From Calditrichia bacterium (GTDB lineage: Bacteria > Calditrichota > Calditrichia > Calditrichales > Calditrichaceae), in assembly GCA_026983775.1 (NCBI GenBank), contig JALSTK010000129.1, positions 1-42,955 of the forward strand: a stretch of DNA of 42,955 nucleotides, read 5' to 3'. Of the stretch, positions 14,460 to 28,976 are shown piece after piece (position 1 is the stretch's first letter; the number at the start of each line of letters is the position of its first letter). The position numbers were made by a program, and so were the translations under genes. The notes beneath the pieces are model-generated. The model saw only the letters and a list, made by a program, of their open reading frames with translations. It was not told the DNA's origin and did not search any database.

Positions 14460-14522
14460 ATCTTATATTAAGAGGACTCATTCAACGTTTGACTCCCGGA
14501 CAGGGTAGAAGGGGAACAAGAC

Positions 14523-15824
14523 ATAGGAACGGTATTAAAAAAAGAGCGTCATTCCAGGCGCAGAGAGATATTCGCCTGGACCCTGTATGATTTCGCCAAT
14601 ACAGCCTATAGTGTCATCGTGGTTACGGTGGTTTATGCGGTTTATTTTAAACAGTATATTGTCGGCGATTTTCGGATGAATTTCTTCGGTTTGGAACGGA
14701 ATCCCGGAGATCTGTTCTGGGGGCTGGGCGGAGCCCTCTCCATGTTGTTTGTCGGTTTGACCTCTCCCTTTATCGGAGCCATCGCCGACTATAGCAACAA
14801 AAAAAAATACTTTCTTCTTTCCTATTCATCCGTTTGTATCATAGCCACTATCTCGCTCTATTTTTTAAGTTCGGGAATGATCTGGCAGGGTGTCCTGCTT
14901 TTTATCATCGGCAATATCGGTTTTGAGGGTGCGATTGTCTTTTACAATGCTTTTTTGCCGCAAATTAGCAATACGGATAATATCGGTAAAATTTCGGGCT
15001 ATGGATTTGCCCTGGGTTATGTGGGCTCATTGGTTTCGTTGCTGATCGCCATGCCTTACGCAAATCTGGCCTTTGCCCGCCACGATCTTTCCCTGATGCG
15101 GCCGACCTTTATTTGGGCCGGACTCTTTTTCCTCTCCTTTTCCCTGCCTTTCTATATCTTTGTAAAAGAAAAAAAAGGAATTGTTGAACACCAAAAGCAA
15201 TCGATACTAAAAGGGTACCGGCGTACTAAAGCCACTTTAAAACGCATCCGTGAATTCCCTCAAATCACTAATTTTTTACTGGCCTATTTTATTTATATTG
15301 ACGGAGTGAATACAGTTATTTATTTTAGTGGTATCTATGCCAGTGATACGCTTGGTTTTTCACTGAAAGAAGTAATCCAGTTCTTTGCCATTGTTCAGGC
15401 TTCGGCTATTTCGGGTTCCTATATCTTTGGATTTTTGACGGATAAACTGGGGCCGAAAAAGACGATCGGCCTGACTCTGATTCTCTGGATGGTTGTAACC
15501 GTCGGAGGCTTTTTGGCCCGGGATGCAACGGCTTTTTATCTGGTAGGTCTGATCGCAGGGGTTGCCATGGGCTCTTCGCAATCTGCCAGTCGCGCCATGA
15601 TGGGCAGGCTTATGCCGAAAGGCATGGAAGCCGAATTCTTCGGGTTTTATGCGTTGACCGGTAAGTTCTCTGCCATTCTGGGACCCCTCCTTTTCGGCTT
15701 GACTTCGACCATAACCAATAGTCAGCGCGTCGCGGTTTTATCGGTGCTGGTATTCTTTATTACAGGATTTGTTCTTCTGCGTCGTGTAAATGAAAACATA
15801 ACATATAAAAATGTGGCTCTTTAG
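14523..15824 (+). CDS. MFS transporter of the UMF1 family, apparent ATA start
   Basis: Inner-membrane major facilitator with about 12 TM segments. The UMF1 (Atg22-like) hallmark is complete: REIFAWTLYDFANTAYSVIV at the start of TM1 and later FIWAGLFFLSFSLPF. The substrate of the family is uncertain. The frame is open only from 14493 and has no ATG, GTG or TTG until a GTG at 14619, which would delete most of TM1. The only sensible site is ATA at 14523, 8 bases after AGAAGGGG, giving 433 residues, the family's length. Either this is a real AUA start or an ATG changed by one base. The 3' end overlaps the following histidine kinase by 14 bases, so the two are coupled. Confidence 0.8.
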   Translation: MGTVLKKERHSRRREIFAWTLYDFANTAYSVIVVTVVYAVYFKQYIVGDFRMNFFGLERNPGDLFWGLGGALSMLFVGLTSPFIGAIADYSNKKKYFLLSYSSVCIIATISLYFLSSGMIWQGVLLFIIGNIGFEGAIVFYNAFLPQISNTDNIGKISGYGFALGYVGSLVSLLIAMPYANLAFARHDLSLMRPTFIWAGLFFLSFSLPFYIFVKEKKGIVEHQKQSILKGYRRTKATLKRIREFPQITNFLLAYFIYIDGVNTVIYFSGIYASDTLGFSLKEVIQFFAIVQASAISGSYIFGFLTDKLGPKKTIGLTLILWMVVTVGGFLARDATAFYLVGLIAGVAMGSSQSASRAMMGRLMPKGMEAEFFGFYALTGKFSAILGPLLFGLTSTITNSQRVAVLSVLVFFITGFVLLRRVNENITYKNVAL

Positions 15825-26536: not shown

Positions 26537-27187
26537 ATGCTGGTTAAAGATTGGATGTCGAAGAAGGTGATTACGATCGATGAATCGGATTCCCTGTCTG
26601 AAGCAATTAACACCTTAAAACGTAATAAAATCAGACGCCTGCCTGTAATGCGCGGTGAGAAGTTGGTCGGGATCGTGTCTGACAGGGATTTAAAGGAAGC
26701 GGCTCCCTCTAAAGCGACTTCTCTCGATATCTGGGAAGTCCATTACCTGATGTCCAAGATAAAAGTAAAGGATGTGATGACTCGCCAGCCCATAACCATT
26801 CATCCTCAGGCTTCCATCGAGAAAGCAGCCATTATCATGTACGATCATAAAATCGGAGGCTTGCCTGTTTTAGATGAAAAAGGAACGCTTGTGGGAATAC
26901 TATCCGTACAGGATATATTCGGCGCTTTGATAAATATTACCGGAGCCAGGATTTCTTCCTATCGTGTGGCGGTTGTTTTACCGGATAAACCGGGTTCCAT
27001 CAAAGAAGTTTGCGATTATATGCGAAAACATGACTTTAAATGTGTGAGTATTCTGACCACCAAAGAAGGCGTTCCGGATAATCAGCGTAAAGTCATTATT
27101 CGTTTTCAATCTGAAAAAGAAAAGTTGCCGCAAATCCTGCAAGAGTTACATAAAAACTATAAGAATGTTGAATTTACGGAAGATTAA
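26537..27187 (+). CDS. CBS-pair plus ACT-domain protein (AcuB-like)
   Basis: A 216-residue cytoplasmic protein with two CBS repeats (about 1-65 and 75-135: VKDWMSKKVITI, NKIRRLPVM, VKDVMTRQPITI, KIGGLPVLD) and an ACT domain (about 143-216: SYRVAVVLPDKPGSIKEV). CBS pairs usually bind adenine nucleotides and ACT domains small ligands such as amino acids. Similar proteins are annotated AcuB, but no acetoin genes are near. It may report energy or amino-acid status to the transporter or to CstA, which it separates. AAGAGAGG lies ahead of the ATG. Confidence 0.85.
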   Translation: MLVKDWMSKKVITIDESDSLSEAINTLKRNKIRRLPVMRGEKLVGIVSDRDLKEAAPSKATSLDIWEVHYLMSKIKVKDVMTRQPITIHPQASIEKAAIIMYDHKIGGLPVLDEKGTLVGILSVQDIFGALINITGARISSYRVAVVLPDKPGSIKEVCDYMRKHDFKCVSILTTKEGVPDNQRKVIIRFQSEKEKLPQILQELHKNYKNVEFTED

Positions 27188-27251: not shown

Positions 27252-28976
27252 ATGGGGGCTTTACTTATTATGTTACTGGCTTTTGCCGGTTACCTTATTA
27301 TGTACCAGTTGTACGGAAAGTATATTGGCAATAAAATTTTCGCTCTTAATGACGCCAATACGACACCTTCCGTGGAGCTGGAGGACGGAATTGATTATGT
27401 TCCGACCAAGAAAGAAATTATTTTCGGCCATCACTTTACCTCGATTGCCGGAACCGGGCCCATTGTCGGACCGGCGATTGCCGTTATCTGGGGCTGGTTG
27501 CCGGCTCTGCTCTGGGTCTTTGTAGGGAGTATCATCATGGGGGCCGTACATGATTTCGGTTCTTTGATTATCTCTATGCGTAATCAGGGAAAATCAATTT
27601 CCGAATTTACAGCCAAATATGTCAGCTCACGTACTAAATGGTTCTTCTTCTTCATCGTTTTTATTGAGCTGTGGATTGTGGTCGCTATCTTCGGGCTGGT
27701 GATCGCCATTTTGTTCAATTTGTATCCTTCCTCGGTATTTCCGGTATGGATGGAAATTCCCATTGCTCTGGCCTTGGGTTGAGCGGTATATAAAAAGAAA
27801 GCGAATGTGACCTCCTGGTCTATTTATGCCATTATTTTGATGTATGCCACGGTCGTTTTAGGTGTTTGGCTGCCTTTTAAATTACCTGCTACGATGTTTG
27901 GGATTTCTGCAATCGGTATCTGGACCATTCTTCTTTTTATCTATGCTTTTATTGCTTCGGTTTTACCGATTACAACCCTTTTACAGCCACGTGATTATAT
28001 GAACTCTCATGAATTGCTTATTGCCATGGTGTTATTGACCCTGGGCGTCATTTTTGCCTCCTTCGGAGGAAATTTGCACATGGTAGCTCCGGCCGTTAAT
28101 TCCAACCCCGTGGGAGCCCCATCGCTTTGGCCCTTTCTGTTTATCACCATTGCCTGCGGGGCCATCTCCGGCTGGCACTCTTTGGTGTCTTCCGGTACTT
28201 CTTCCAAACAGGTACGCAAAGAATCCGATTCCCTGTTTGTCGGTTATGGATCGATGATTATGGAAAGCGTTCTGGCGGTTTTTGTTATCATCGCCGTCGC
28301 CGCCGGAATCGGCATGGGATTGCATACCAAAGACGGACAAACATTAATGGGGGTTCAGGCCTGGACCCATCACTATGCCTCCTGGGCAGCCGCTAAAGGG
28401 TTAGGTTCTAAAGTCGGTGCTTTTGTCGTCGGATCTGCAAATATGCTGGGCGCCATCGGCATTCCCTTTAAACTGGCCATTACCATCATGGGCGTGTTTG
28501 TGGCTTCCTTTGCCGGAACCACCCTGGATTCTGCAACGCGTATCCAGCGCTACGTGATAACGGAAATGTTTCCCGGAACTTTTAGAAATCGCTATATTGC
28601 CACGGCAGTCGTTATGCTCTTCGCTACCTTTTTAGTGTTCTCAACCGGAGCTAACGGTAAAGGCGCTTTGATCTTATGGCCTTTGTTCGGTGCCGTTAAC
28701 CAAACACTGGCCGGTTTGGCATTAATTATTGCGACGGTTTACCTTAAATCCCGAGGCGGCCTGAAATGGCTGGTTACCGGTCTACCCGCTGTTTTTATGG
28801 TAGTCATGTCTTTCTGGGCTACTATAATCAATCAAATTAAATTTCTCCAGGGAAATGTTCTGCTAACGATTATTAACTTTATTATTATTCTTTCCATTCT
28901 CTGGATCGTTATCGAAGGTCTTATAAGATTTTTCTCGGTAACCGATGCCGGAGAAGCTCAGTTTGAACAGGCTTAA
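27252..28976 (+). pseudogene. cstA: CstA-family transporter gene interrupted by an in-frame TGA
   Basis: A 575-codon CstA/BtsT-type transporter reading frame (peptide or pyruvate uptake; about 15 TM segments) is split by TGA at 27780-27782, codon 177. Both halves are in the same frame and match the family: HHFTSIAGTGPIVGPAIAVI in the first and SGWHSLVSSGTSSKQ in the second. The stop falls after ALALG and before AVYKKK, where Trp is plausible, so TGG to TGA is the simplest cause. The second part could be restarted at GTG 27807 but has no binding site. I see no SECIS-like hairpin after the TGA. Genes nearby use TGA as a normal stop. It is either a nonsense allele, a consensus error or a readthrough case. 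GAGAGGTGG precedes the start, and a terminator follows the gene. Confidence 0.75.

Follow-up and report, generated by a model that had tools for sequence, protein, structure and literature searches.

A single in-frame TGA in the only CstA-family transporter gene of an assembled Calditrichia genome

The window (the whole 42,955-nucleotide stretch analyzed here) is contig 129 of a 4.03-Mb genome that is assembled in 179 contigs with a stated completeness of 99.48%. Positions 27252–28976 of its + strand hold a CstA gene (PF02554) of 575 codons in a single frame. The translation contains one internal stop, the TGA at codon 177, and terminates with TAA. The locus and its neighbors comprise the following features.

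26537..27187, + strand: CBS-domain protein directly upstream of cstA (PF00571, 130 bits); neighbor kept in both sisters (G007 and G003)
27252..27779, + strand: N-terminal part of the CstA-family transporter, codons 1–176 (PF02554, 206 bits); GAGGTG ribosome-binding site before the ATG, Shine-Dalgarno match of 6 bases
27780..27782, + strand: in-frame TGA, codon 177; relatives have W, R, Y, H, V, L, Q or F, never Cys
27783..28976, + strand: C-terminal part of cstA in the same frame (PF02554, 234 bits); first possible start GTG 27807, TAA end
27809..27820, + strand: weak hairpin 3' of the TGA, GACC-UCCU-GGUC; apical loop without the G needed by a bacterial SECIS (criteria from the available part of PMC13188914)
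29800..30702, + strand: ArsA-type ATPase downstream of cstA (PF02374, 179 bits); neighbor kept in G007

The two parts match consecutive stretches of the Pfam CstA profile, positions 2–175 and 189–560. A search of the whole genome with PF02554 returned the same locus with 453 bits over profile positions 2–560, across the TGA and with one TGA flagged inside the match; with the TGA read as tryptophan, the score was 456 bits over the same span. By this match over the length of the profile the gene belongs to the CstA family, and the initial annotation, which had described a one-frame CstA gene split by TGA at codon 177, was correct on this point. The profile search found no second CstA copy in the genome. 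Among the 35 open reading frames of the window picked as genes (from 81 listed), an internal stop occurs in cstA alone. Solved structures gave no sequence match to the C-terminal part, a plasmid collection gave only short matches to cstA with 60–80% identity, and a literature search joining CstA with Calditrichota returned nothing.

The gene order of the window is common to G007, and also to G003 over the stretch compared in that genome. The nearest named record is the MAG Calditrichota bacterium Dive96_bin1.111, with 81% identity over the C-terminal part of cstA; the CstA search of 60 genomes returned no other genome of the source genus. A MAG labeled Melioribacteraceae (L033) carries a CstA that is 71% identical to that of the window and falls near the Calditrichota copies, by horizontal transfer or misbinning.

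CstA matches were found in 34 of the 60 genomes searched, the source genome included, and none of the other 33 has a stop inside the matched stretch (the C-terminal part). Codon 177 was read in the 29 of these 33 genomes that were given as loci and in three further loci from a named collection. The 29 genomes have Tyr (7), Trp (6), His (5), Arg (5), Leu (2), Phe (2), Val (1) and Gln (1), and the three named loci have Tyr; in total, the codon is a sense codon in 32 of 32 relatives and Cys in 0 of 32. The closest sister, G003 (82% identity), has TGG at this position. The next sister, G007 (81%), has CGG, and several order-level relatives also have Arg. One transition is enough to turn either TGG or CGA into TGA and, because of these arginine codons, the change from CGA is an equally short route. 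This alignment, which the initial annotation had proposed as a check, supports its suggestion that a single substitution at a poorly conserved position is the simplest origin of the stop.

Both halves of cstA are as constrained as in intact relatives. At 236 positions that are invariant across 18 family and order relatives, the gene of the window departs four times, and four intact relatives depart 1, 4, 5 and 3 times. Values of dN against the two sisters are 0.08–0.14 in both halves (dS is saturated), and there is no extra change 3' of the stop beyond a somewhat higher rate in the C-terminal half that the intact sisters share. Over both halves the lineage of the window has 48 unique residues versus 36 and 30 in the sisters, and the two halves are alike in this respect; the excess may reflect a longer branch. 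Since the constraint on both halves matches that in the intact sisters, the interruption is recent, or not real, or else full-length protein is still being made. With a single disabling change, intact orthologues and no further decay, the gene has the marks of a recently nonsense-interrupted gene.

UGA is a normal stop codon in this genome. It ends six of the 35 genes of the window, and among 104 reciprocal-best pairs with G007 whose C-terminal ends agree, the source genome uses TAA 58 times, TGA 28 times and TAG 18 times, which confirms the remark in the initial annotation that TGA does terminate other genes here. Release factor RF2 is present (531.7 bits). The tRNA list, which may be incomplete since 150 of 233 candidates were scored, consists of 46 matches plus tRNA-Sec. 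It contains a single tRNA-Trp with the anticodon CCA, and no suppressor tRNA (UCA besides tRNA-Sec, or another stop-reading anticodon) was found among the 46 matches. Genome-wide reassignment of UGA can be rejected on the grounds that TGA provides 28 of 104 gene ends, that RF2 is present and that, among the candidates scored, the UCA anticodon occurs only on tRNA-Sec.

The same genome encodes a selenocysteine pathway. SelA (497 bits) and SelB (377 bits) are present, a tRNA-Sec lies on contig 177 and has the sole UCA anticodon among the 150 of 233 candidates scored, and a Sec-type SelD contains one in-frame TGA. The genome holds two SelD genes (G000, C153:27419-28351, L104, and C63:66230-67153, L103), one of the Sec type with a TGA and a SECIS-like hairpin and one of the Cys type. 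The Cys-type SelD lies within a 740-residue open frame, fused behind an apparent cysteine desulfurase, a name which we take from the look of the sequence. The TGA of the Sec-type gene, placed by eye, aligns with the cysteine of the second copy, and is followed after 20 nucleotides by a hairpin of 7 base pairs with a GGU loop. A profile search for formate dehydrogenase (TIGR01591) gave no match. Some UGAs of this organism are very probably translated into selenocysteine. Consequently, missing machinery cannot be used as an argument against selenocysteine in CstA, and the cstA codon itself had to be tested.

The bacterial SECIS rule, as given in the available part of PMC13188914, calls for a loop of 3–9 nucleotides with G in the first two, located 16–37 nucleotides after the UGA, on a stem of at least 4 base pairs with a minimum free energy of -7.5 kcal/mol or lower. 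At the cstA TGA the best of the hairpins that carry a loop G and lie within the allowed distance is unstable at +3.0 kcal/mol, a value that 490 of 544 cstA codons reach or better in the same test. SelD, as the positive control, gave -7.4 kcal/mol, 0.1 short of the published limit. The test is unspecific, in that 183 of the 544 codons of cstA come within the -7.5 limit; a pass would carry little weight, whereas a failure is informative. The small hairpin visible 3' of the TGA has the loop UCCU without G, and its stability does not stand out clearly from that of shuffled sequence (z of -0.5 to -1.3). Of what the initial annotation had required for selenocysteine, namely selA/B/C and a SECIS after the TGA, the genome supplies the machinery; the SECIS at cstA is lacking, as the same annotation had reported. 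Selenocysteine at codon 177, for which the presence of SelA, SelB, tRNA-Sec and a Sec-type SelD could be cited, is therefore rejected on the codon itself: none of the 32 relatives has Cys there and the best hairpin is worse than that at most cstA codons. We assign this explanation a practically negligible probability.

We also compared how often internal stops occur in the source genome (443 kb) and in G007 (971 kb). Stops at the edges, upstream of starts, were dropped, and a stop was kept only where the alignment on either side of it ran to 20 codons or more with a local identity of 40% or more. Across 118 orthologous alignments (at least two of them antisense) with 43,441 codons, the source genome has cstA as its only true internal stop; the window with cstA lies inside this sample, so that it is not an independent draw. 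Two of the three strict hits were removed since they run antisense to an intact 632-residue gene that, from the look of its sequence, is presumably ftsH-like. The reverse comparison (116 alignments, 43,221 codons) gave three internal stops in G007, all TAG.

L148:6901-8304 of G007: gene with one in-frame TAG where the source genome has S; presumably peptidase-like, from the look of the sequence
L181:3275-4735 of G007: gene with one in-frame TAG where the source genome has S; presumably membrane glycosyltransferase-like, likewise from its sequence
L099:2460-3047 of G007: gene with one in-frame TAG where the source genome has E; Arf/MglA-type small GTPase, named after its homologue in the window

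No internal TGA or TAA was found in G007 in those 116 alignments. TAG ends 21 of 104 conserved genes in that genome, and its 46 tRNA matches include none with a CUA anticodon. These TAGs could be artifacts or real. The difference between one and three internal stops is not significant (p 0.37); single internal stops occur at a similarly low rate in both assemblies and, whether real or artifactual, are no rarity among the MAGs of this group.

Elsewhere in the window, an Atg22/MFS-type transporter gene (14521-15824) lacks an ATG, GTG or TTG where its start is expected; an ATA stands there behind an AAGGGG-like site. The sisters have no ATG at the corresponding position either; a TTG is possible in G003 and none is evident in G007. 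Because the sisters also do without ATG, this lineage may use a non-standard start for the gene. The initial annotation had read this start as a similar G-to-A deviation that would corroborate a consensus error, a view that these comparisons do not support.

How, then, may the TGA in cstA be explained? On balance we favor an ordinary single-base nonsense substitution in the only CstA-family gene of this genome, real and recent, by which the transporter would have been lost. The change would have struck a freely varying position of a gene for an importer of the pyruvate or peptide type. If the cells do carry this base, UGA would act as an ordinary stop, the main product would be an N-terminal fragment of 176 residues, and the transporter would not be made, or be made only in traces through background readthrough. 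Because the rest of cstA shows no decay, the change would have arisen very recently, and would probably be at the level of the strain or still segregate. A consensus error, or a stop that is tolerated through readthrough, would account for this absence of decay equally well. An error of consensus or assembly, which would leave the cells with a sense codon and an intact cstA, ranks second, as a less likely explanation: the intact state of the gene, its place in a gene order conserved in two sisters and the fragmented assembly of 179 contigs speak for it, as do the three internal TAGs per approximately 43,000 codons in the sister MAG, which make artifacts at this frequency plausible. Against it, the aligned genes of the source genome contain no other internal stop, and the MFS start provides no second G-to-A error.

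Near-cognate readthrough of UGA would insert tryptophan, the residue that the closest sister has at codon 177. The UGA might then be decoded, with tRNA-Trp as one candidate, at a frequency sufficient to supply full-length CstA, perhaps as low-level regulation. We judge this improbable. The persisting constraint on both halves is consistent with it, but for a recent stop it would be uninformative; no relative has the stop (33 other genomes matched, codon 177 read in 32 relatives), no suppressor tRNA was found among the 150 of 233 candidates scored, and UGA ends other genes normally. Many internal stops in bacteria have been argued to be tolerated, according to the available part of PMC7918605. 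Nothing in the cstA sequence itself appears to call for readthrough, and we give very little weight to a deliberately leaky UGA, by which an organism that decodes UGA as selenocysteine elsewhere would make full-length CstA through low, possibly condition-dependent readthrough. It is likewise very unlikely that the halves are translated separately and then assemble into a two-piece transporter, as the initial annotation had offered as one option. A GTG does lie 24 bases 3' of the TGA, and a very low-confidence AlphaFold model (five sequences, mean pLDDT 37.5, unusable as a whole) ends a helix near residue 180, such that a loop may lie close to the break. However, only Shine-Dalgarno-like matches of at most three bases precede GTG 27807 and none precedes ATG 27840, in contrast to the GAGGTG site at the true ATG start, and no relative is split at this place (33 other genomes matched, codon 177 read in 32 relatives).

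The evidence does not support a novel reading of the genetic code at the cstA TGA. The case cautions that an in-frame TGA in a genome equipped for selenocysteine can mimic recoding, and the question is settled at the level of the codon, by comparing it with a Sec-type gene from that genome. If the stop is real, it would mark the ongoing loss of the sole CstA-type importer from this population, an ecological point of minor weight.

The gene resembles known systems in three respects. Like the bacterial selenoprotein SelD of the same genome, it has an in-frame TGA in a genome with selenocysteine machinery; for SelD a Cys counterpart exists and a hairpin of 7 bp with a GGU loop follows 20 nucleotides after the UGA, whereas cstA has neither. 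Like the in-frame nonsense codons in conserved bacterial genes described by Belinky et al. 2021 (PMC7918605), which the available part of that paper portrays as widespread and mostly short-lived, the stop arises from a single substitution in a gene otherwise under purifying selection; in contrast to those cases, it is known from one genome alone. Finally, the full-length match over both parts places the gene in the CstA/BtsT carbon-starvation (pyruvate/peptide) family (PF02554), whose best-known members import pyruvate in E. coli, as described in the available parts of PMC7730263 and PMC5847655. From this family the gene of the window differs by one TGA at codon 177, a position at which all relatives read are open.
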